Part shown: positions 4,961-37,708 of the stretch, piece after piece
How positions within the stretch are numbered: the stretch's first letter is position 1
How the letters are laid out: every line of letters starts with the position of its first letter
Source: a bacterium
GTDB taxonomy: Bacteria; Myxococcota_A; UBA9160; UBA6930
NCBI GenBank assembly: GCA_024228115.1
Contig: JAAETT010000540.1
Location: forward strand, 1-38,019
Length of the DNA stretch: 38,019 bases
Direction of reading: 5' to 3'
The notes under the pieces: model-generated
Database searches by the model: none
What the model was told of the DNA's origin: nothing
Seen by the model: the letters and a program-made list of their open reading frames with translations, nothing else
Made by a program: the position numbers and the translations under genes

Positions 4961-4980
4961 CCTTCCCGGAGTCAGTTCCT

Positions 4981-5046
4981 GCGGTCGGCGTTGCCGTATC
5001 ATTGCCCGCTCCAGCGGTCGGCGTTGCCGTATCATTGCCCGTTCCA
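4981..5046. repeat. 33-bp tandem repeat, two copies
   Basis: Two adjacent 33-base units, 4981-5013 and 5014-5046, identical except for one base (CGCTCCA versus CGTTCCA at the end). Each contains GTTGCCGTATCATTGCCCG. They lie between yhbY and the CoA transferase gene and end just before the transferase ribosome site AAGGAG. Each unit holds a TATCAT box that could act as a -10 element, but no well-spaced -35 is obvious. Confidence 0.9.
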
Positions 5047-5062: not shown

Positions 5063-6208
5063 ATGTCTGGCCCTCTCAGCGGTATCAAGGTGATCGAGAT
5101 CGCGGGCATCGGCCCGGGCCCCTTCTGCGCGATGATGCTCGCGGATATGGGCGCGGACGTGCTGCGCATCGATCGCACGGCCTCGGTCCGGGACGAAATG
5201 CCGGACCGACCGTCCCCCGATCTCCTGAACCGCGGGCGCCGCAGTGTGGGCGTCGATCTCAAACATCCGGAAGGGGTGGCCACCATCTTGCGTCTCGTCG
5301 ACCAGGCGGACGTCCTGATGGAGGGCTTTCGACCTGGCGTCATGGAACGCCTGGGCCTCGGCCCCGAGGTCTGCCTCGAGCGAAACCCGGGGCTCGTCTA
5401 CGGGCGTATGACCGGCTTTGGCCAGGAAGGCCCGATGTCCCAGGCGGCTGGCCACGACATCAACTACATCGCGCTCGCCGGTGCGCTCGGCCACATCGGG
5501 CGCAAGGGCGAAAAGCCCCTTCCCCCGCTCAACCTGGTGGGGGATTTTGGCGGCGGTGGAATGTTCCTGGCCTTCGGAATTGCCACTGCCCTGGTAGAGC
5601 GCGCCAGCTCCGGCAAGGGTCAGGTGGTCGATGCGGCCATGGTCGATGGCGCAGCCGTGCTGATGACCATGATGCATGGCTTCCAGCAGCTCGGCGGCTG
5701 GAGCGACGAGCGCGGCACGAACCTGCTGGATACCGGCGCCCACTTCTACGACACCTACGAAACGAAGGACGGTGAGTTCGTATCGGTCGGCTCGATCGAG
5801 CCGCAGTTCTACGCGGAGTTGCTCCGCCTCACGGGGCTCGCGGACGAAGAACTGCCTCATCAGATGGACAACGCACATTGGGAGCCGATGCGGGAGCGTC
5901 TTGCCGCGATCTTCAAGGCCAAGACCCGCGAAGAGTGGAACGGCATCATGGAGGGAACGGATGTCTGCTACGCGCCGGTCCTCAGCATGGGCGAGGCCTA
6001 CGAACACCCGCATAACAAGCTTCGCGGAACCTTCGTCGAGTCCGGTGGTTTTCAGCAGCCGGCACCGGCGCCGCGCTTCAGCCGTACACCGGGCAGCATC
6101 GACCGGCCCTCTCCCCACGCAGGGCAGGACACGGACGAAAGCCTCGTCTCCTGGGGCCTGACGACTGAGGACGTGGCGAAGCTCCGCGAGCTCGGCGCAA
6201 TCAAATAG
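5063..6208 (+). CDS. CaiB/BaiF family III CoA transferase, alpha-methylacyl-CoA racemase type
   Basis: A 381-residue cytosolic enzyme. It most resembles alpha-methylacyl-CoA racemase, which inverts the 2-methyl centre of branched acyl-CoA esters for beta-oxidation. Key marks: N-terminal [25 protein letters not shown] with the active-site histidine near residue 130, [10 protein letters not shown] with the paired aspartate near 161, GAHFYDTYE and [11 protein letters not shown] with the glutamate seen in racemases. Formyl-CoA or succinyl-CoA transferases of this family use an aspartate in another context, so racemase is favoured. I start at the ATG at 5063, preceded by AAGGAG 8-13 bases upstream; the open frame further upstream runs through the tandem repeat. 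A giant palindrome begins right at its stop codon. Confidence 0.88.
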
Positions 6209-6301
6209 AATCGGGGACGTTCTTTCCGCTGTTTCCGTTACGGGCCGGGCGCGACGCGCCCGGCCCGTAACGGAAGCAGCGGAAAGAACGTCCCCGATTC
6301 T
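6207..6301. repeat. Long palindrome 1 (47-bp arms, REP/terminator-like)
   Basis: Arms 6207-6253 and 6255-6301 are complementary except for one T-G pair, around a single central base. The outer ends read TCGGGGACGTTC on the left and its complement on the right; the middle is very GC-rich. It fills the gap between the converging CoA transferase and phosphatase genes, starting inside the transferase stop codon. As RNA it would form a huge hairpin in either direction, so it may end transcription for both genes. It lacks a U-tract and has no open frame of its own. Confidence 0.9.
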
Positions 6302-11805: not shown

Positions 11806-14357
11806 GCTCCGACACTTCGAGGCTGATCGACCGCGTCCCCCTTGGCGACGCGTCGCTCCTCGATTCGAGTTCGGTTGTCGACCCGGGTTCGGTTCTCGAT
11901 CTCTTTCTCGGCTGGATGCACGACACGGGCATCGAGCCCTATGCCCATCAAGAAGAAGCCCTGCTCGAAATCGTCTCCGGCCGCCACGTCGTGCTTTCGA
12001 CACCTACCGGCTCCGGCAAGTCGCTCGTCGCTCAGGGCCTTCACTTCAAGGCGTTATGCGAAGGCAAGCGCTCCTTCTACACGGCGCCGATCAAGGCGCT
12101 CGTCTCCGAGAAGTTCTTCGATCTCTGCAACGTGTTCGGTGCCGAGAACGTCGGCATGCTCACCGGCGATGCCAGCATCAACTGGGCCGCCCCCATTCTG
12201 TGCTGCACCCAGGAAGTGCTGACGAACATGGCGCTGCGTCAGGGAGAAACGACCGACGCTCCCTACGTGGTGATGGACGAGTTCCACTACTACGCGGATC
12301 GCGACCGCGGCCATGCATGGCAGATCCCGCTGCTCACCTTGCCGCGCACCACATTTCTCCTGATGTCCGCGACCCTCGGGAACATGGCGAACATCGCCGA
12401 GCGGCTCACCGTCTACACGGGGCGCGAGGTCGCGGAGGTCTACTCCGAGGTGCGGCCCGTGCCGCTCTCCTACGAGTATCGCGAGACGCCCCTCCAGGAA
12501 ACCGTGGAGAAGCTGCTCGACGCGGGGCGCGCGCCCATCTACGTCGTGAGCTTCACCCAGCGCGAAGCGGCCGAAGTGGCCGGTGCGTTGACCAGCGCCA
12601 AGGTCACCGATAGGGAAGGGCGCAAGGCGATTTCCGAGGCCGTGCAGGATTTCCGCTTCGATACACCCTACGGGAAAGACATGAAACGGATCATTTCCCA
12701 TGGGATCGGCGTGCATCATGCGGGGCTGCTTCCCAAGTATCGCCTGCTGGTAGAGCAGCTGGCACAACAAGGCCTGCTGAGGGTGATCTCCGGAACCGAT
12801 ACGTTAGGCGTGGGCGTGAACATTCCGATCCGCACCGTATTGTTCACCAAGCTCAGCAAATACGATGGCGAGAAGGTGCGCGTCCTCTCCGTGCGGGATT
12901 TCAAGCAGATCGCCGGGCGGGCAGGGCGCAAGGGCTTCGACGACGCAGGCTGGGTCGAATGCCAGGCACCGGAGCATGTCATCGAGAACAAGCAGGCGGC
13001 GGCCAAGGGCAAGGGGCGCTCCCGAAAACCCGCACGCAAGAAACCGGCGCCGCGAGGCTTCGTCGCCTGGAATCGGGAGACGTTTCGGCAACTGGTGGAT
13101 CGGCCACCGGAGACCCTCGAAACCCGGTTCCGTGTCTCCCACGGCATGCTGGTGAACCTTCTCCAGCGTAGGCCGGAGCAAGCTGGGCCCCGCGGCGGCT
13201 ATGGCGCATTGGCCGAACTGGTCGCGCGCTCTCACGAGAGGCCGCACCGTAAACGCAGGCTCTTGCGTGAGGCGGCCGGGCTCTTCCGTTCCCTTCGCAA
13301 GGCAGAAATCCTACGCGTGCAGGATCATCAGGTCATCGTCGACGAGGAACTCCAGCGAGGTTTCTCGCTTCATCAGACGCTCTCGCTCTACCTGGTCGAG
13401 GCGCTCGATGCTCTCGATCCGGAGCAGCCCGGTTACGCGCTGGACGTCGTCTCTGTGGTCGAAGCCGTGCTCGAAGATCCGGTACCGATCCTGCGCTCCC
13501 AGGCGCGCAAGGCACGCGACGAATTGTATGCCCAGTTGAAATCCCAGCGGGTGCCCTACGAGGAGCGCCAGGCGAAGCTCGAGCGCGTCACCTACCCGCG
13601 TCCCCTCGAAGAATTCCTCGAGGAGACGTTTCGGATCTTCGCAGAGCATCATCCCTGGGCCAGCCGCGAAGCGATCAAGCCGAAATCCGTGGCCCGGGAG
13701 ATGATCGAGCACTACGCCGCATTCGACGACACCGTAAAGCGTTACGGCCTGCAGAGGGTGGAAGGGCTCTTGCTACGGCATCTGGGCCAGGTTCTCTCGA
13801 CCCTGAACCAGACGGTGCCCGACACCGCCAAGACCGATGACGTGCATGACGTGCTCGCCTACCTGCGTGCTTTGATTCGCGGGGTGGATTCGAGCCTGCT
13901 CCAGGAATGGGAACGCATGGTTCGGCCAGGCGATGAGCCGGATCCGAGCGCGCAGGCCTCGGAGGCACCGCGCCATCAGGCCCTCACGCCCAAGGCGTTC
14001 CGAGCTCGGATCCGCGCGGAACTCCACGCGCTCCTCCGAGCCTTGTCGCTAGGCGATCTGGAGGAGGCCGTGCGCTGGTTGGCCCCGGATCCGGATGGCC
14101 CTTGGGACGCTCCCCGCCTTGCAGAGCTGCTGGCGCCGTTTCTCGAAGCCCATCGGAACGTTCGCTTCGATGCAGAGGCGCGCCGGGCCTATCACACGGC
14201 CCTCCACGAGGCCGGACCGCGGCGCTGGACCGTCCATCAGACGCTCCTCGACCCTGAGGGCGAAGGAGATTGGGCTCTGGTGGGGGAGATCAACCTCCCT
14301 CCGGGGGATCCGGATGAACGCCCCCTGTTTCAATTACGAGCGCTCCAGGAGGCCTAA
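11802..14357 (+). CDS. Ski2-like DEAD/DEAH RNA helicase, DUF3516 type
   Basis: About 851 residues. The helicase core shows motif I STPTGSGKSLVA near residue 66, motif II as DEFHYY near 160, motif III MSATLGN, and a C-terminal RecA domain with HHAGLLPKYR, SGTDTLGVGVN and QIAGRAGRKG. These are the marks of Ski2/Mtr4-like helicases. The remaining C-terminal part resembles the DUF3516 helicases found in actinobacteria and myxobacteria; a basic insert follows motif VI (AAAKGKGRSRKPARKKP). RNA unwinding in decay or processing is plausible by family. The start is the GTG overlapping the serC stop; the frame upstream is antisense-like noise within serC. Coupling to serC is probably organisational rather than functional. 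Confidence 0.88.
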   Translation: MSSDTSRLIDRVPLGDASLLDSSSVVDPGSVLDLFLGWMHDTGIEPYAHQEEALLEIVSGRHVVLSTPTGSGKSLVAQGLHFKALCEGKRSFYTAPIKALVSEKFFDLCNVFGAENVGMLTGDASINWAAPILCCTQEVLTNMALRQGETTDAPYVVMDEFHYYADRDRGHAWQIPLLTLPRTTFLLMSATLGNMANIAERLTVYTGREVAEVYSEVRPVPLSYEYRETPLQETVEKLLDAGRAPIYVVSFTQREAAEVAGALTSAKVTDREGRKAISEAVQDFRFDTPYGKDMKRIISHGIGVHHAGLLPKYRLLVEQLAQQGLLRVISGTDTLGVGVNIPIRTVLFTKLSKYDGEKVRVLSVRDFKQIAGRAGRKGFDDAGWVECQAPEHVIENKQAAAKGKGRSRKPARKKPAPRGFVAWNRETFRQLVDRPPETLETRFRVSHGMLVNLLQRRPEQAGPRGGYGALAELVARSHERPHRKRRLLREAAGLFRSLRKAEILRVQDHQVIVDEELQRGFSLHQTLSLYLVEALDALDPEQPGYALDVVSVVEAVLEDPVPILRSQARKARDELYAQLKSQRVPYEERQAKLERVTYPRPLEEFLEETFRIFAEHHPWASREAIKPKSVAREMIEHYAAFDDTVKRYGLQRVEGLLLRHLGQVLSTLNQTVPDTAKTDDVHDVLAYLRALIRGVDSSLLQEWERMVRPGDEPDPSAQASEAPRHQALTPKAFRARIRAELHALLRALSLGDLEEAVRWLAPDPDGPWDAPRLAELLAPFLEAHRNVRFDAEARRAYHTALHEAGPRRWTVHQTLLDPEGEGDWALVGEINLPPGDPDERPLFQLRALQEA

Positions 14358-22282: not shown

Positions 22283-23118
22283 ACTCCGCCGAAGATCCCG
22301 AGGCCTTCCCCAGCCCGGCGATCGCGACGGCGCTCACTTTGGCTGCCCTGATGGTGATGTTGCTCGTGGTGGCGCCCTTCTTCACGGCGGGCCACATCGT
22401 CGCTGGGCTCGCCGCGGGCACCGTCGTGGGCTTTGGCGGCGTCGGAAGTCTGGCAGCGCGGCGGGTGCCCGCGCCGGCAGACCAGCACCTGGGCCTATGT
22501 GGCGTGCCCCTGAAACGACTCCTGATCGTGCTGATGTTGGTCCCGCTCGTTCTCTGGCTCTCGGAGCTCGAGAACATCGTGGCCCTCTGGCTCGAGCGAC
22601 CGGAACCGACGCCGCCCCCGGAGCCCGGCTCGAATGGCATCAGCGAAGGCCTGCGTTCCCTCGAGATCGCCCTCTTCGTCGTTCTGCTCCGGCCGGTCGT
22701 CGAGGAATTCTTCTTTCGCGGTGTCATCCAGCAGGGAGTGGTGGCTCATCTCGGCCCGGGCTGGGGAGTGCTGCTGAGCACGCTGCTCTTCAGCCTCTCG
22801 AGGGGGCTTACCGGCCCGACGAGCGAGTACGGCGCCGTGGTTGTCGTCCTCCAGATGCTCGTGTTGGGCGGGGTCCTCGGCGCCCTACGCCTGGCGACCG
22901 GCTCCCTGTTGCCAGGCATCCTCCTCCAGGGCCTGATGAACAGCATCGAGATCCTGGCCCTATCCGTCGCCGAAGACTTCCCGATCCAAGGCTTCACGAC
23001 CCTCGACAGCCACACCCACCCCGCCCTGTTGCTACCCGCCGCACTCCTCATCGCCTGGGCCATCGCAAAGATGCGCCACCTCAACAACTCAACTAGCGGG
23101 GACGGGGTTTACAATTGA
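22279..23118 (+). CDS. CPBP-family membrane protein, probably catalytically impaired
   Basis: A 279-residue polytopic membrane protein with the fold of CPBP (CAAX/Abi) intramembrane metalloproteases. Motif 1 (EExxxR) is intact in VVEEFFFRGV near residue 142. Motif 2, usually FxxxH, reads FSLSR near 171, and the histidine of motif 3 is replaced by Gln (LLQGLMN) near 215. The missing histidines would be metal ligands, so it may be a non-protease relative. Its start overlaps the uvrA stop (ATGA). Its last residues, after NNST, are encoded by the left arm of palindrome 2, which also supplies the stop codon. Confidence 0.75.
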   Translation: MNSAEDPEAFPSPAIATALTLAALMVMLLVVAPFFTAGHIVAGLAAGTVVGFGGVGSLAARRVPAPADQHLGLCGVPLKRLLIVLMLVPLVLWLSELENIVALWLERPEPTPPPEPGSNGISEGLRSLEIALFVVLLRPVVEEFFFRGVIQQGVVAHLGPGWGVLLSTLLFSLSRGLTGPTSEYGAVVVVLQMLVLGGVLGALRLATGSLLPGILLQGLMNSIEILALSVAEDFPIQGFTTLDSHTHPALLLPAALLIAWAIAKMRHLNNSTSGDGVYN

Positions 23119-23177
23119 CTTGTTTGGCGGCGCTGCCGCCAAACAAGTCAATTGTAAACCCCGTCCCCGCTAGTTGA
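23089..23177. repeat. Long palindrome 2 (43-bp perfect arms)
   Basis: Arms 23089-23131 and 23135-23177 are perfectly complementary around a three-base loop. The arm contains GCGGGGACGGGGTTTACAAT and then TTGACTTGTTTGGCGGC. It contains the stop codon of the CPBP-like gene in its left arm and that of the CotH gene (converging) in its right arm. It shares its core with palindrome 3, and a GGGGACG foot with palindrome 1. It may terminate both transcripts. Confidence 0.95.
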
Positions 23178-26687: not shown

Positions 26688-26774
26688 TCAACAGCGAGGA
26701 CGGGGTTTACAATTGACTTCTTTGGCGGCTCTGCCGCCAAAGAAGTCAATTGTAAACCCCGTCCTCGCTGTTGA
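26688..26774. repeat. Long palindrome 3 (42-bp perfect arms)
   Basis: Arms 26688-26729 and 26733-26774 are perfectly complementary around TCT. The sequence matches palindrome 2 across nearly the whole arm, but AGCGGGGACGG is AGCGAGGACGG here and GACTTGTTTGG is GACTTCTTTGG; in both cases the opposite arm carries the matching change. It ends 1 base before the egtB stop codon and lies upstream of the CotH gene, same strand. Confidence 0.95.
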
Positions 26775-31024: not shown

Positions 31025-32335
31025 TCAACGCACCCGAGCGGCCTTTTCGAACGCGATTTCAGCCGCTTGGAGGGTCTCGCAAAGCTCCGAGGGACGATGG
31101 GCCAGGGAGACGAAAGCCGCCTCGAACGGAGAGGGCGCCAGATAGACCCCCTGCTCCAGCAGGCTCTTGAAAAAGACCTGGAAGCGGGCCTCGTGAGCCT
31201 TCTTGGCGTCCTCGAAGTTCCGCACCGGGCCGGGGTGGAAGAAGAACCCGAACATCCCGCCGACCGCGGTGGTGGTGAACTCGATATCTGCCGCCTTGGC
31301 GCGCTGGGCCAGGCCCTCGGTCAGGAAGGCGGTCTTCTCGGCCAGGGCGTCGTAGACTCCGGGCTCGGCCAGGCGTCGAAGGGTCTCCCGCCCGGCGGCC
31401 ACCGCCAGTGGATTTCCCGAGAGTGTCCCCGCCTGGTAGACCGGCCCGGCTGGAGCGATCTCCCGCATCAGGTCCCTGCGCCCGCCGTAGGCCGCAGCCG
31501 GCAAGCCCCCGCCGATCACCTTGCCGAACGTCGTGAGATCCGGCTTCACCTTGTAGAGGCACTGGGCCCCGCCCCAGGCGACCCGGAAACCGGTCATCAC
31601 CTCGTCGAAGATGAGTAGTGCACCGTGCCGATCGCAAAGATCCCGCAGGCCCTGCAGGAAGCCCGGCAGGGGTGGCACGCAGCCCATGTTGCCCGCCACC
31701 GGCTCGACCAACACGCAGGCCAGATCCGCACCGTGATGCTTGAAGGCCGCCGCCACCGACGAGAGATCGTTGAAGGCCGCTTGAATGGTGAGCTTCACGA
31801 ACTCTTCCGGTACACCGGGGGAGCCGGGAATACCGAGGGTGGCGACGCCGGAGCCGGCGCCTACCAGCAGCGCATCCGAATGGCCGTGATAGCAGCCGGT
31901 GAATTTCAGGATCTTCTTGCGGCCGGTCGCAGCCCGGGCCAGACGAATCGCGCTCATCGTGGCTTCCGTGCCCGACGACACGAAGCGCACCTGCTGCACG
32001 CTGGGAACGGCCTTGCAGACCTGTTCTGCGATTTCGATTTCGCCCTCGGTCGGCGCACCGAAACTCGTGCCTGCCGAGGCGGCTTGCTTGACCGCCCGTA
32101 CGACACGCGCGTCCGAGTGGCCGAGGATCAGCGGCCCCCAGGAACCCACGTAATCGATGTAACGATTGCCATCCACATCGGTGACATGGGCTCCCTTGCC
32201 GGAAGCGATGAAAGGCGGCGTACCGCCAACCGCTCCGTACGCTCGCACCGGGCTGTTCACGCCGCCAGGGATGAAACGCTTGGCGCGGCGGAAGAGCTCT
32301 TTCGAGCGAGAGAGGTCCAGGCCTTTGGGGGGCAT
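31025..32335 (-). CDS. hemL: Glutamate-1-semialdehyde 2,1-aminomutase
   Basis: A 436-residue PLP enzyme making 5-aminolevulinate for haem and tetrapyrroles by the C5 pathway. It begins SKELFRRAKRFIPGGVNSPVRA, has DVDGNRYIDYVGSWGPLILGH, DEVMTGFRV and the PLP lysine in TFGKVIGGGLP near residue 270, and ends in the usual YLAPSPFEAAFVSLAH. The start is the ATG at 32335; the open frame upstream is not supported by family similarity. It sits about 80 bases upstream of atpZ on the same strand, so it might share a transcript with the F0 genes. Confidence 0.95.
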   Translation of the reverse strand: MPPKGLDLSRSKELFRRAKRFIPGGVNSPVRAYGAVGGTPPFIASGKGAHVTDVDGNRYIDYVGSWGPLILGHSDARVVRAVKQAASAGTSFGAPTEGEIEIAEQVCKAVPSVQQVRFVSSGTEATMSAIRLARAATGRKKILKFTGCYHGHSDALLVGAGSGVATLGIPGSPGVPEEFVKLTIQAAFNDLSSVAAAFKHHGADLACVLVEPVAGNMGCVPPLPGFLQGLRDLCDRHGALLIFDEVMTGFRVAWGGAQCLYKVKPDLTTFGKVIGGGLPAAAYGGRRDLMREIAPAGPVYQAGTLSGNPLAVAAGRETLRRLAEPGVYDALAEKTAFLTEGLAQRAKAADIEFTTTAVGGMFGFFFHPGPVRNFEDAKKAHEARFQVFFKSLLEQGVYLAPSPFEAAFVSLAHRPSELCETLQAAEIAFEKAARVR

Positions 32336-32436
32336 GGGCGGGTATTTAGCCCGCGTCGTGCGAGGGGCAAGGCCGGATGTCCCCGTGGGGAGTTCCCGCT
32401 GCGGGTCGTTCGATCGACACGGTAGACGCCGTGCAA

Positions 32437-32458
32437 CGCCCGAAGGTTTCCTCGGGCG
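32437..32458. terminator. Hairpin after the CARDB-like gene
   Basis: CGCCCGAAGG and CCTCGGGCG pair around TTT with one bulged A. It lies 26 bases past the stop of the CARDB-like gene on the minus strand and about 100 bases before hemL. No U-tract follows, so its role as a terminator is tentative. Confidence 0.4.
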
Positions 32459-32484
32459 CTTGCCGGGGGAGCCGATGCCCCAGC

Positions 32485-33744
32485 TCAGAACCCCGAGCGG
32501 CCCTCCGCGACAGGCTCGAAGCAGATCTGCGCAGGGTAGACTTCGTGGCCCTCCGGCTGGATACGCGGATGCGGCGTTCCGCCGACCTCCCCAGAGCTGC
32601 TCCAGCCCCTCATCTCGTGAACCGACTGCCTGGCGTCGCAGTTGCCCGGGAAGCCCGGCCAGAAGTGAGGAACCTGGAAGCGGTGGACGCGCTTGCCCGT
32701 ATTGCCACGGCGGCAATCCCGGTCTCGACTGCAGTCCATGTCCCGCGCCTTCATCACGAACTCGATCGTCTCGCCCTCGTAGGCATAGGCTTCAGCCGTC
32801 GCCGCGTGCGGGACTCCCACGAGATCGCCATCCCGCACCTTGAGATGGCTTGGGCTGTGTGCGAGCCGGTCTCCCGATCGTCCAGACTGCATGATGCCGA
32901 GATTCGGGTGGTCATGGGTCGTTTCGCTTGCGTTGTGAAGCTGGGTCTTGATCCACTCGATCTCGCAGACGTCGCCGGCACCCCGGCCGCAGCGCATCCA
33001 GAAGACGAGATTCGAGAGCTTGACGCGCACCCTTCGCTCCCCACGCGCGGCCGGCGTTTGGCGATCATCGCGGAGCACCTCCACCAGACGCGCGGACACC
33101 CGATCGTTCGCCGGGTTCGGATCCGCATAGCCTTCGCCACGCCGCATCGAGGGGCTCACGGATGCATGCACCGAGAGTTCTTCGCGCGGGCGGGTATAAC
33201 GCTCGGAGCATCGCGGGTTGCGGGTGCGAACGACGACTTGGCGCGTCTCACCCACTCGGAGGCCTGAGACCGGAACGACGGGATTGCCACTAGGCCAGTC
33301 GCAGGCGTCGCCCGCGTCGACGCGCACGGAGACGATCGCCTTGCGGGCGAGCGCAGTGGGACCGTTGTTCTTCACCTCGACGACGACCTCGACCCGAGGC
33401 AGGACGGCCTCGACGATGCGGATGCCGATATCGGCTTTCGGCCGGCTATCGACCTGGTTCGGATCGAGCTGCCCCATTCCCGGCCGCATTGGCGAAGGCC
33501 TCACGGCGCCCGGCGTGGTGACCTCCTCGGGCACCTTGCCTTTGCGCGGGTCGTGCCGCTTCGGCTTCGGAACCCGCTTCTGCGGCGCGTCGGGATCCTG
33601 CGCCGGCACGGGGCTCGTCACCTTGCCCTGCCCACCGAGCGGATCTCCCTCGAGCAGGTCTTCGCGGACCTGCGCCGCGCCCGAGGCCGCGACCAGGCAG
33701 GTAAGGGCGAGCACCAGGACCCATTGCATCGCTCGAATCGACAT
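32485..33744 (-). CDS. Secreted CARDB-domain protein, unknown function
   Basis: A 419-residue exported protein. Signal peptide: MSIRAMQWVLVLALTCLVAASGAAQ. After a Pro/Lys-rich linker, residues about 95-220 look like a CARDB adhesion-type beta-sandwich (KADIGIRIVEAVLPRVEVVVEVKNNG, GLRVGETRQVVVRT, ADPNPANDRVSA). The last 180 residues contain several cysteines (CSRDRDC, ICFEP) and I recognise no domain there. I chose the ATG at 33744 because GGGAGG precedes it by 7 bases. It is the last housekeeping-side gene before the scarred region. Confidence 0.7.
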   Translation of the reverse strand: MSIRAMQWVLVLALTCLVAASGAAQVREDLLEGDPLGGQGKVTSPVPAQDPDAPQKRVPKPKRHDPRKGKVPEEVTTPGAVRPSPMRPGMGQLDPNQVDSRPKADIGIRIVEAVLPRVEVVVEVKNNGPTALARKAIVSVRVDAGDACDWPSGNPVVPVSGLRVGETRQVVVRTRNPRCSERYTRPREELSVHASVSPSMRRGEGYADPNPANDRVSARLVEVLRDDRQTPAARGERRVRVKLSNLVFWMRCGRGAGDVCEIEWIKTQLHNASETTHDHPNLGIMQSGRSGDRLAHSPSHLKVRDGDLVGVPHAATAEAYAYEGETIEFVMKARDMDCSRDRDCRRGNTGKRVHRFQVPHFWPGFPGNCDARQSVHEMRGWSSSGEVGGTPHPRIQPEGHEVYPAQICFEPVAEGRSGF

Positions 33745-34018: not shown

Positions 34019-34121
34019 CCCAATGGGCGCTCCGCTAGCGATGAGTCCTCATTCTCCCCAGAGGGACTTGTCAAATCACCCCCGTATCGGACACGAATCA
34101 CCCGTTGGAACTCCTATTCTC
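34019..34121. repeat. 103-bp direct repeat, copy A
   Basis: Matches copy B (37469-37571) at all but about seven positions, in the same orientation. It contains the near-palindrome ATGAGTCCTCAT and two similar blocks, GGACTTGTCAAATCACCC and GGACACGAATCACCC. The GGDEF-like gene on the minus strand runs into it and stops within its first few bases. Confidence 0.9.
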
Positions 34122-34413
34122 GACAGATCGCTTCCAGGTTCTCGATGCGGCACACCGCCAGGGCCAGGGCGTGCTCGCGACCCTGGCTGCGCGAGATCTC
34201 CCCGTGAATGCGCTTGGAGATGTAGCTCGCGTTGGGGAGCCCCGTCTCCTCGTCGAAGTTCCGGTGTCGGCGGGCCCGGGCCTGGAAGAGGGGGTTCATG
34301 ACCGCGCACCCCACGTAGGAGACGAAGTGCGAGAAGCTCTGGAAGTCGTCGGTGCCGAAGTGGTCGGCGTAGAAGTGATCCGGGAGGGAGAGGAACTCCA
34401 ACAGGGGATCCAT
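34114..34413 (-). pseudogene. Truncated GGDEF-like protein
   Basis: A 99-residue remnant. After about 53 residues of unknown type it shows the start of a diguanylate-cyclase-like domain: FDEETGLPNASYISKRIHGEI followed by ALALAVCRIENLEAI, then it stops at a TAG inside repeat A. The catalytic GGDEF motif and the whole C-terminal half of the domain are missing, so no cyclase activity is expected. It is divergent from the LuxR-type gene. Confidence 0.6.
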
Positions 34414-34478
34414 GTGCGATAAGGGGTGTGCCTTGACAAGAAGAAGAACACACACCCGGGGGGGCGGGGACGAATCGC

Positions 34479-34498
34479 CTACAGGGCAACCCCTGTGG
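34479..34498. promoter_or_regulatory. Candidate operator between GGDEF fragment and LuxR-type gene
   Basis: CTACAGGGCAACCCCTGTGG has perfect 6-bp inverted halves, ACAGGG and CCCTGT, around CAAC. Its 20-base length is like that of lux-box operators, although the halves are not the lux consensus. It is nested in a wider inverted repeat, CGAATCG (34471) and CGATTCG (34513). It sits 70-90 bases before the first possible start of the regulator. Confidence 0.35.
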
Positions 34499-34566
34499 GA
34501 ACGTGCGTTCGTCGATTCGCCTCGGATCGAGCCGGAATCCGATAGAATGGCCTCCAGCGGGCCGAG

Positions 34567-35670
34567 TTGTCTACCGGCTTCACGCGAGACAGGGTCTCGC
34601 CCATCGACCAGGATCCGAGTTGGATGCGCAGGATCAAGCCGAGCGAAACGCTGCACGGAACCCGGGATGGACAGCTCACGATCGATCATCGACTGGCCGA
34701 GCGCTACGGACTGACGGAGCGCGAGTCCACCTGTGCCACGCTCCTCGGGCGCGGGCTCTCGGCGCAGGAGATCGCAGAGCGACTCGAGATCGCGATGTCC
34801 ACAGCCGAGAAGCACCTGCTGGGACTCCGGCGCAAGCTCGGCGTCGCCACGACCCGCGAGGCGGCAGTCGCAGTCCTCCGCGCCAAGGATGAGGCCACCG
34901 CTCGCATTCCGGATTCCTTTGGTGTCGTCCTGCCTGTCGGGGACCCACGCGATGAGGCGCGGGCCCCGGGCCTGGTGCAGGATCTGCGCACGGCCGAGGC
35001 CCTCGAGGCGATGCTCGATCGACTCAGAGAGGATCTTCGCGACGACGGAATCGAAGCGCTTTTCTATTACTTCGTCCCGATGGCGGCAGCCAGCTTTCGC
35101 AAGAGGGACGTGATCCGGGCCCACTCCGCACCGTCCCGCCTTCTGCATGCCTTCCGGGAGGACGGTGGGATCACCCAGCTGCGCATCGCGGCGCGCATCT
35201 TCGACGAGCCGGACGTGCCGCTGGTCGTCGATCTCGACGACCAGCGCCTGATCTCGCCGGGGGTGGCCGCGGCGTGCCGTCGAGCCTCGCTTCGACGGGG
35301 GATCACGGTCGGCTCCCCGTTCGGCGTGGGCTACGTCGTGCTCTCCACCTTCTGCAAAGCCAGCGCCGACGGCCCGGAGGCCGGGGAGGAAGCGCGAATC
35401 GCGCTGATTCGCAATCGACTCCTCCTCTTGCAGGGCCTCGCCTTCTCTCTTGGGGTGTTGGCCCGAACCGCGGGGTTGACCACGCGGGAACGCGACGCTC
35501 TCGCATCCATGGCCGTTGGGCGCAGCACGGTGGCGTCGGCCGATGCGATGGGGATGAGCGAACGGGCGCTCCGGCAGACCCTTCGCTGCGCCCGGGAGAA
35601 GCTCGCTGCGGACACCACGACCGAGGCGGTCGCCAAGGCGATCACGTTGAATGCCCTCGTCTTTCTCTGA
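34567..35670 (+). CDS. LuxR-type regulator with HTH domains at both ends
   Basis: About 367 residues (348 if the ATG at 34624 is used). Residues 48-105 form a LuxR-type HTH (GLTERESTCATLLGRGLSAQ, EIAERLEIAMSTAEKHLLGL). The middle 150 residues resemble an autoinducer-binding-like domain (ALFYYFVPMAAASFRK, LISPGVAAACRRASLRRGIT) but the aromatic ligand residues of LuxR/TraR are not evident. The C-terminus holds a second LuxR-like HTH (GLTTRERDALASMAVGR, SERALRQTLRCAREKL, TEAVAKAI). Ordinary LuxR solos have only the C-terminal one. TAGAAT at 34543-34548 could be a -10 just before the TTG start. It is a DNA-binding regulator; its signal is unknown. Confidence 0.8.
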   Translation: MSTGFTRDRVSPIDQDPSWMRRIKPSETLHGTRDGQLTIDHRLAERYGLTERESTCATLLGRGLSAQEIAERLEIAMSTAEKHLLGLRRKLGVATTREAAVAVLRAKDEATARIPDSFGVVLPVGDPRDEARAPGLVQDLRTAEALEAMLDRLREDLRDDGIEALFYYFVPMAAASFRKRDVIRAHSAPSRLLHAFREDGGITQLRIAARIFDEPDVPLVVDLDDQRLISPGVAAACRRASLRRGITVGSPFGVGYVVLSTFCKASADGPEAGEEARIALIRNRLLLLQGLAFSLGVLARTAGLTTRERDALASMAVGRSTVASADAMGMSERALRQTLRCAREKLAADTTTEAVAKAITLNALVFL

Positions 35671-35732
35671 GGTGCGAGCTCCAGGGGCAAGAAGCGGTCT
35701 TCAGGCGTCGGCCATCACGCCCTGCTTCCTTC

Positions 35733-36704
35733 CTACTCTCTTCCCCTGCGCACGCGTCTTCCGGAGAGGCACGCGGCCAAACCCGCCATCGCGATGAGCC
35801 AACTCGCGCGTGCTTCAGGCACGGCGCGCGGGTCATACCAGACGTTGTCGAAGATGTTCGCGTCCGCCACGTCGACGCTCCAGCCTGGCGGGAGGTCGAA
35901 GGCCGGCCGACCGCTGGCGAAGGTCAGCGAGTTCGCCGCATCCACGATGGCGAGCGCATCGAAGTCCGCATGGCCGTTGGCGCCTGCGCCGGCGGAAAGG
36001 GACATCCCGATCGTCAGCCTGCGGGTCGGATCGATCATCGCGACCCCTGTCTGTAGGGTGGCCCCCAACGAATCCGTGTCTGTGTCCACGGGCTGGCTGA
36101 GGTTGGCTGATGCCGCCGCGCTGGCGGAGGCGGTGTCCGTCATGGTGACGGTGGAGAAGTTGGAAGTGAACCCGGTGAAGCCGATCTGCGCCGTCAGGGT
36201 GGCACCGCTTGCACGTCCACCGAACCTCGAAAGCGACGCAGCGTAGGCCGAGGTGGTCCCCGACACGTCGGCGCCGAAGCTGAAGGGGATCTTGCCGCCG
36301 GTATAGCCGCTGGGGGCAATCAGGACGATTTCATAGGAGCTCGAGGCCGTGGCACCCACTCGCCCCTGCACACTGGAGCCCGTGTCCTTCTGGTAGGTCG
36401 CCGTCACGGTTGCGACGCCGCCCCCCGCCGTAGCGGAGACCGACACCGAGCAATTGCTGCCGGAGGAGGAGAAGCCGCCTCCGACAGGGCCGTTGTCGAT
36501 CTCTTGGATGTTGAAGCCTGGCGCCATTCCGCACGGCGCGTTGGCAACACCCAATCCGTTGGTTCCCGTAACCTGGTTGATCGTGGCGGCCGATGCCGGA
36601 GCACCCGCCAGCACCAGGGCTGTGAACGCGAGTCGAAGCGCTGTGCAGAGCCCTCGGAGGGTTCGACATCGGAGAGTGGACTTGAGAAAGCAGTTTGCGT
36701 GCAT
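35733..36704 (-). CDS. PEP-CTERM exported protein
   Basis: A 323-residue secreted protein. Signal peptide: LRLAFTALVLAGAPASAA, cleaved near residue 40. The mature part is rich in Ser, Thr, Gly and Ala, has two Cys (positions 58 and 85), and looks beta-strand-rich (SSYEIVLIAPSGYTGGKIPF). The C-terminus is a PEP-CTERM sorting signal: VPEARAS, a hydrophobic helix and RRVRRG, for processing by an exosortase. The rest is unrecognised. I start at the ATG at 36704; the open frame upstream runs into the IS remnant. It converges on the LuxR-type gene. Confidence 0.8.
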   Translation of the reverse strand: MHANCFLKSTLRCRTLRGLCTALRLAFTALVLAGAPASAATINQVTGTNGLGVANAPCGMAPGFNIQEIDNGPVGGGFSSSGSNCSVSVSATAGGGVATVTATYQKDTGSSVQGRVGATASSSYEIVLIAPSGYTGGKIPFSFGADVSGTTSAYAASLSRFGGRASGATLTAQIGFTGFTSNFSTVTMTDTASASAAASANLSQPVDTDTDSLGATLQTGVAMIDPTRRLTIGMSLSAGAGANGHADFDALAIVDAANSLTFASGRPAFDLPPGWSVDVADANIFDNVWYDPRAVPEARASWLIAMAGLAACLSGRRVRRGRE

Positions 36705-36736
36705 GGTTCCCCCGCAACAGCCTTCCCAAGGCACGA

Positions 36737-37468
36737 TCACCCTACGCTGGAGGGTGCTCCGGTTCCATGGCGGGAATTGCCCGTTGCCTTCCGGATTGCG
36801 CACGCTGACTGACATCGACAAGGTAGAGCTGCCGGAACCTGCGGGGATTGGCGGGTTCCCGCCAGCTTCCGCCGCCTGTACACCTCGGCGGGCGTCGCCT
36901 TCGATCGCAGGCCGAGCCACTTCCACATTGGAGCCTTCAGGGCGTACTCCACCCGTTCTCCGTCGAGAAACGAGAAGATCTCCGGGTGAAAGAAGGCCGC
37001 GTCCATGCGTAGCTCCACTGGAAGGCGATGCCCGAACCGGCCTCGGAGATCCTCGAACACGCCGCCGAGAAAGCCGGCAGCATTGTGACTGTCGTGCACG
37101 TTCCCCGGCCGATTCCAGACGCGAAGGATCTGGCCGTGCTGGGTAAGATGCGCCGTGGGCGGGTAGTAGGAGAGATCCTTGAGATGGTGCGGGTTGAAGC
37201 CCCGTTCTGCTCCGTCGACCTTCGTGCCAGTTCGCAGCACCGTTCCATCGCGGTCGATCGTCAACCGGGAAAGGCCGCAACGCTCGACCTGGTCGTACAC
37301 GAGCTCCCGGATCAGCTCCGACAACTTCTCGAGCATCTGGGGGGTGAAGGCCTTCAGCCAGGCCACCACCGTGCGGTCGGAAGGCGTGAGATGGAGTCCC
37401 GCGAAGCGCAGCAACACTGGATCGGTCCCGACGAACACGAGATGCGTGACGCGCAGGCCTCCGATCAC
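36737..37468 (-). mobile_element. IS1380-family transposase remnant, both ends lost
   Basis: About 240 codons of the middle and later part of an IS1380-type DDE transposase: TDPVLLRFAGLHLTPSDRTV, then LTIDRDGTVLRTGTKVDGAERGFNPH with the first catalytic Asp, SYYPPTAHLTQHGQILRVWNRPGNVHDS, ELRMDAAFFHPEIFSFL with the second Asp, and YALKAPMWKWLGL. The N-terminal quarter is missing: the frame begins at the edge of repeat copy B. The last 40 residues lose similarity. It is therefore inactive. It shows that IS activity preceded the repeat insertion or rearrangement here. Confidence 0.8.
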
Positions 37469-37571
37469 CCCAATGGGCGCTCCGCTAGTAATGAGTCCTC
37501 ATTCTCCCCAGAAGGACTTGTCAAATCACCCCCTTGTCGGACACGAATCACCCGTTGGAACTCCCATTCTC
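37469..37571. repeat. 103-bp direct repeat, copy B
   Basis: Same sequence as copy A with about seven differences (for example TCGCTAG-type GCGATG versus GTAATG, GAGGGACT versus GAAGGACT, CGTATCGG versus CTTGTCGG). Its left edge cuts the IS1380 transposase and its right edge cuts the SRPBCC gene. Distance to copy A is 3450 bases. Confidence 0.9.
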
Positions 37572-37708
37572 TCCAGTGTGCCGCCCTTGCGATAGTCCGG
37601 AGAGGAAGCCTGCGTGAACCACTCCGCGATGCCGGCCGTGCTAGCCACGCGCCGGTACACGCTCTCCGGCGTTGCACGAATCCGAACGAGATGGGCGATC
37701 TGTGCCAT
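37526..37708 (-). pseudogene. Truncated SRPBCC/AHSA1-type protein
   Basis: The first 45 or so residues of an SRPBCC (START-like) protein: MAQIAHLVRIRATPESVYRR, then IAEWFTQASSPDYRKGGTLE. The family is usually about 140-160 residues; here the reading frame enters repeat copy B at 37571 and ends after 15 unrelated residues. Probably a broken gene. The family binds hydrophobic ligands; no function remains to be inferred. Confidence 0.6.

Follow-up and report, generated by a model that had tools for sequence, protein, structure and literature searches.

The 38,019-nt contig JAAETT010000540.1 (the window; contig C540 of source genome G000, GTDB lineage Myxococcota_A; UBA9160; UBA6930) carries copies of a 103-nt repeat that belongs to a previously unnamed family of an already known kind, the small interspersed repeats of bacteria. 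With a probability of roughly 0.7, the 103-mer is a lineage-restricted, small, non-autonomous repeat of two modules that has spread and recombined, collecting at the joints of genomic islands. The copies are dispersed, end sharply, favour intergenic sites, are modular, occur also as solo modules and chimaeras, and in some cases lie at joints; we infer that they were copied in trans in a transposition-like manner and recombined homologously with one another. The source assembly comprises 6.4 Mb in 700 contigs and is 97% complete.

Copies, ends and range of the repeat family

Two direct copies in the window, A and B, lie 3450 bp apart and are 94% identical over 103 nt (E ~1e-38), which confirms the pair reported in the first-pass annotation, a reading of the letters alone. 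Both have the minus strand as the element orientation, 5' GAGAATAGGAGTTCC ... CCCATTGGG 3', and on that strand the element reads GAGAATAGGAGTTCCAAC...CCCATTGGG. A third, diverged copy (C), not noticed in that annotation, is inverted relative to A and B, and a GGDEF fragment is thus flanked by copies A and C.

34019..34121, (-) strand: repeat copy A, full length, recent subfamily 1 (sequence comparison, repeat-model match)
37469..37571, (-) strand: repeat copy B, full length, subfamily 1, 94% identical to A (sequence comparison, repeat-model match)
34387..34497, (+) strand: copy C, diverged, inverted relative to A and B (repeat-model match)

A sequence-only model built from 24 copies (threshold E<=1e-3) gave 30 matches in the window's genome and 16 in a congener, G003, so the further copies that the annotation had suggested looking for do exist. 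The same model had no match in three other congeners or in nine further genomes of the family, and five matches on two contigs (C47 and C87; L042 and L213) of G049, a genome of the same order and another family. BLAST matches in a relatives set of 60 genomes were confined to 3 (the source genome, G003 and G049), and a left-core pattern run over 84,980 species genomes, a strict pattern and a scan that may leave out the source genome itself, matched only G003 and G049. The latter two are metagenome-assembled genomes labelled Deltaproteobacteria with a shared sample name, Meg19_02 (Bin_150 and Bin_77); because of this shared name misbinning of the G049 contigs is possible, and the five copies may reflect either horizontal transfer or misbinning. 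The composition of these contigs is close to that of the genus, but not decisive. An origin from a phage or plasmid was rejected, as a 108-nt query had no blastn match in phage and plasmid collections and no exact pattern match was found in viral contigs. Searches of an open-access literature collection found no report of such a repeat for the lineage or for uncultivated genomes.

Complete and partial copies together number 49, spread over 35 regions; the full copies (n = 35) are 98-111 nt long. Their GC content is 57.5%, versus 65.4% for the window. Six subfamily-1 copies (A and B in the window, two on C43, and those on C154 and C99) are 93-99% identical and have sharp ends, with an average identity of just 26-28% in their 100-nt flanks. 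The annotation had proposed defining ends and target duplications; the former are sharp, and no target duplication was found around 35 copies, where the longest shared word averaged 2.86 versus 2.89 +/- 0.15 for shuffled partners. Terminal inverted repeats (TIRs) were likewise not found in the 35 copies (mean z 0.59; z >2 in three). The fold of the DNA is not strong, with z values of 0.25, -0.72, -0.07, -1.99 and -1.81 for five strands of three copies, and the consensus fold of the alignment is weak (-9.4 kcal/mol, with both sides changed in 2 of 16 pairs). Given this consensus fold, and with no Rfam family at gathering score, a structured RNA was rejected.

Depending on the frame, only 6 to 12 of the 35 full copies can be read through without a stop in the forward direction. 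In the reverse direction one frame lacks stops in 29 of 35, but one-base insertions and deletions between subfamilies shift the reading frame and the repeat is therefore probably non-coding. Counted against mechanically called open reading frames (ORFs), 16 of the 35 full copies overlap no ORF, where 3.5 would be expected at random places, and 25 overlap an ORF by <=50 nt or not at all (5.2 +/- 2.1 expected). The copies have no preference for either end of a gene (31 at 3' versus 30 at 5' ends). Unrelated families of short dispersed repeats share spacers with this one (L017 2364-2464, L046 6058-6158, L129 2355-2467, L124 371-428 and others).

The genes beside the copies are of ordinary and diverse kinds. 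The 172 ORFs located within 3 kb were compared with Pfam in two halves of 86, and in neither half did a family of transposases or recombinases occur twice among the families listed (the 25 commonest of 88 and the 25 commonest of 108); a transposase present once could lie outside these lists. In agreement with the annotation, the repeat contains no transposase of its own, and no such family recurs beside its copies in the families listed.

Left and right modules have partly independent histories

The repeat consists of a left module of ~53 nt (...TGTCCGATAAGGGG...CTTGACAAGT) and a right module of ~45 nt (GGGGAGA...CCCATTGGG). When the alignment was cut after the core GGGG, the distances among left parts and among right parts had a correlation of 0.27, versus 0.67 +/- 0.07 for random column splits, of which 0 of 200 were as low. 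Seven left and seven right modules occur alone. Chimaeric copies were found on three contigs: C341, where the left part is identical to subfamily 1 and the right part differs by 32%; C635, with its left part from subfamily 2 and its middle from subfamily 1; and g3C202, the left half of which is identical to that of g3C26 with the right half nearest to g3C180. These observations show that the two modules have partly independent histories. At L117 4930-5039 and L120 1794-1902 the left module is ~10 nt longer, perhaps an older form.

An ISNCY-family insertion sequence (IS; NCBIfam E 7e-142) starts or stops at the module junction of the copies on C310, C635 and C99, and probably also on C581 (sites L045 on C99, ~12115-13686; L017 5485-5625; L014 1-138). 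In at least three places this IS is placed as if the repeat were its target, for which there is a precedent in REP sequences as IS targets (PMC1525189).

Joints with core genes and the hemL/RND slot

In the congener G004 the genes hemL, RND (AcrB-type), membrane-fusion protein (MFP) and gyrA are contiguous, hemL being assigned from an aminotransferase class III match and the fusion protein from its position. G003 has an insertion of 8.1 kb between hemL and RND, a slot that is empty in G004, and a full copy of the repeat (L036 14648-14748) ends ~18 nt short of the point where the sequence again becomes homologous to the RND gene of G004. The G003 RND frame terminates inside this copy (...LLPKGEV-GIGVPTGDSMSDMGIT) with its RND Pfam domain complete. 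In the window, hemL (31025-32716) is followed by a variable stretch with copies A, B and C, and the RND gene of this genome is on another contig, C46. The stretch from ~32.4 kb (32396) to the contig end corresponds to the slot that is empty in G004. A second break, between the fusion-protein gene and gyrA, is present in the window's genome, with a left half-copy on C46 and a right half-copy on C563 that lies ~26 nt from the edge of gyrA homology. Copies of the repeat do mark joints between core genes and inserted DNA, at one fully documented site and one half-copy site. The hemL-RND-MFP-gyrA region is itself an insertion hot spot, interrupted twice in the genome of the window and at least once in that of G003, at the following positions.

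Window 32396 to contig end; L036 6611-14748; L124 469; L122 4773; L214: positions of the hot spot

The segment from A to B, which the annotation had taken for a bounded island, is part of this larger slot. The annotation's view of the repeat as a mobile or recombinogenic module holds in so far as the repeat is discrete, multi-copy, located at the edges of variable DNA and found with chimaeras and decoupled halves; it finds no support for A-B as a mobile unit. The following genes and gene fragments lie between and beside the copies.

34126..34260, (-) strand: start of a GGDEF domain, fragment between A and C (Pfam GGDEF 2-46/161, E 0.005, weak, below the curated cut-off)
34567..35670, (+) strand: LuxR-type (GerE) regulator, 367 aa (GerE E 2.5e-14)
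35733..36704, (-) strand: gene of a PEP-CTERM-like secreted protein (C-terminus with VPEA, hydrophobic stretch and basic end, by eye)
36896..37465, (-) strand: IS1380-family transposase, internal fragment with both ends missing (NF033539 60-249/419, E 3.7e-23)
37529..37708, (-) strand: SRPBCC-like start fragment (Polyketide_cyc2 1-46/142, E 0.003, weak, below the curated cut-off)

The GGDEF-like, SRPBCC and IS1380 neighbours named by the annotation are present, all as fragments. It had also claimed that the repeat truncates these three genes. The SRPBCC-like frame enters copy B and terminates inside it, and the IS1380 fragment adjoins copy B on its N-terminal side; its other end is also cut, with no repeat there. 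Inspection of the window ORFs revealed none of the missing halves across the repeat, and a simple insertion of the 103-mer therefore fails to explain the truncations. The PEP-CTERM-like gene had no match in the family-model search and owes its label to the reading of its C-terminus.

Only two full-length homologues of the LuxR-type regulator are present in the window's genome, on C540 and C43. They are 44% identical, and each lies between direct subfamily-1 copies and beside a PEP-CTERM-type gene. Elsewhere, in a 377-genome sample of the phylum (E<=1e-10), homologues were found only in G333 (53%) and G300 (43%), where they also adjoin PEP-CTERM genes. Neither of these genomes has a match to the repeat model, nor do direct repeats flank the gene pair there; the LuxR-type and PEP-CTERM pair is therefore a unit independent of the repeat. 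For the same reason the regulator was rejected as a component of the repeat system. An enrichment of PEP-CTERM motifs near copies was not convincing (10 matches per 119 kb near versus 10 per 235 kb far), and two of the near matches (C175 and C563) look false. The two-gene unit is patchy and its gene order varies; the LuxR-type regulator has helix-turn-helix regions at both ends.

Window 34567-36704; L043 1706-3680; L206 4604-6964; L207 2163-4143: positions of the two-gene unit

Other repeats in the window are a tandem pair of 33 nt at 4977-5042 (94% alike, unit divisible by three), two strongly palindromic 77-nt repeats at 23095-23171 and 26693-26769 (94% alike, each self-complementary) and a hairpin at 6207-6301 with 47-nt arms and a 1-nt loop. 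The self-complementary repeats and the hairpin look like REP-type hairpins.

We propose that a copying process, provided in trans, would have multiplied the 103-mer in two congeneric species; its copies may then have recombined with one another, which left copies and half-copies where core genes meet inserted DNA. In the variable slot from hemL to the RND-transporter gene, A, B and C would be joints of this kind, and the truncated remnants of the GGDEF, SRPBCC and IS1380 genes would be the debris of rearrangement, not the products of single insertions. Recombination between A and B that deletes the LuxR-type and PEP-CTERM genes, as the annotation envisaged, is possible in principle.

Several observations weigh against this proposal. 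The hemL edge in G003 has no copy within 500 nt, and the clean empty slot comes from one genome only (G004). A joined-flank search of four loci found no site from which a lone copy is precisely absent; outside the source genomes it matched only gyrA (C563), a short repeat next to C250 and one of the flanks of g3C312. A moving enzyme was not found among the listed families of the neighbouring genes. As neither such an enzyme nor such a site was found, we infer rather than observe that the 103-mer itself transposes. In addition, the six recent copies stem from a fragmented assembly (700 contigs), and identity between older copies is low (minimum 55%, median 70%), some of which may be relics with eroded ends.

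Alternative explanations and known repeat families

An alternative that we consider unlikely is that the repeat is the site of a site-specific recombinase, with exchange at the core TCCGATAAGGGG swapping or excising segments in a cassette-like manner; this would explain the island edges and the twice-bounded gene pair. Consistent with it, the C341 and C635 chimaeras look reciprocal, with switches in or beside the core, both full-length LuxR-type homologues lie between direct subfamily-1 copies, and the joints of core and accessory DNA coincide with copies. The switch points, however, also coincide with the longest stretch that the copies share, where homologous recombination would preferentially act, and no recombinase family recurs in the listed families of the 172 neighbouring ORFs. 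Neighbouring pairs of copies (n = 13, leaving out the split C581 copy) are on the same strand in eight cases and on opposite strands in five, so that the copies form no same-strand, attC-like array and have no array polarity. An integron attC site was rejected, since the consensus R'' and R' boxes occur together in 0 of 35 copies on either strand. A related and improbable variant would be an undescribed cassette-like system, in which crossover at TCCGATAAGGGG reshuffles the modules and moves accessory genes by means of a recombinase encoded elsewhere in the genome.

It is also improbable that the repeat is a classical miniature inverted-repeat transposable element (MITE), derived by deletion from a DDE or Y1 (RAYT) transposon and mobilised by the transposase of that element. 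The size, copy number, lower GC content and intergenic bias would all fit, but TIRs, target duplications and a strong fold are missing from the copies. A RAYT/REP origin was rejected: five genomes of the genus contain 30 scanned Y1_Tnp loci, and none of these has a copy within ~1.5 kb.

That A and B bound a composite mobile island, with the LuxR-type and PEP-CTERM genes as cargo, is a reading in which we have little faith. In its favour, the second such gene pair, on C43, also lies between direct copies of subfamily 1. Against it, identity is just 44% between the two LuxR proteins but 93-97% between the surrounding repeats, and the gene order differs, from which it follows that the cargo has not recently moved together with the repeats; G333 and G300, moreover, carry the pair with no repeat copy and no flanking direct repeats.

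Finally, it is very improbable that the repeat is part of a longer known IS, part of a coding domain (either of which the annotation had named as a refutation) or an assembly artefact: copy B adjoins the IS1380 fragment, several copies have an ISNCY element at their middle and many copies are close to contig ends, but the flanks of the copies are unrelated to each other, the frame-shifting differences argue against a coding domain, no Rfam family was matched, and contig ends share identical overlaps of ~137 nt. Because these overlaps suggest an assembly word longer than the repeat, they would support the joints across it. The repeat was not found to belong to either an IS or a coding domain.

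What is known of small interspersed repeats comes mainly from cultured bacteria. The present family is from an uncultured lineage and is abundant, partly recent, modular and located at joints, yet the usual marks of transposition were not found. If its spread is confirmed, the question arises as to what mobilises a 100-bp sequence that has no inverted ends and leaves no target duplication. In these genomes, copies of the repeat serve as markers of island edges.

Like bacterial MITEs (PMC2229807, PMC3049150), the repeat is shorter than 200 bp, multi-copy and non-coding (98-111 nt, 35 copies). Because three defining features, TIRs, target duplication and a stable stem-loop, are not found here, it is not classed with them. 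CIR of Caulobacter and Brucella, compared by description only, is similarly intergenic and listed without TIRs, but it has long stem-loops formed by its 5' and 3' parts and carries TA at its ends (PMC2229807), neither of which is seen here. REP sequences serve as IS targets (PMC1525189), as the repeat appears to do for the ISNCY-family IS at its module junction; it differs from REP in having no strong palindrome and no linked Y1 transposase.

The ERIC/IRU (RU-1), RU-2 and RU-3 repeats of enterobacteria (PMC2759123, PMC2229807) are of ~100-170 bp, intergenic and present in tens of copies, and are sometimes fused to the 3' end of a gene, the frame of which then stops within the repeat, as is the case here for the G003 RND gene and the SRPBCC fragment. 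ERIC has TIRs and a target duplication, and all of the reviewed families form stable stem-loops (PMC2759123, PMC2229807), features not found in this repeat. The BOX elements of Streptococcus pneumoniae also have TIRs and target duplications and are well folded (PMC3049150). They differ from our repeat in these three respects and in their repeated middle module, as we see just two modules and no repeated middle one. They resemble it in being small, modular interspersed repeats, the modules of which also occur alone and which are found mainly in one species and its near relatives (PMC3049150). No common descent with BOX is claimed; the comparison suggests that the repeat works in the manner of BOX and ERIC-type elements.

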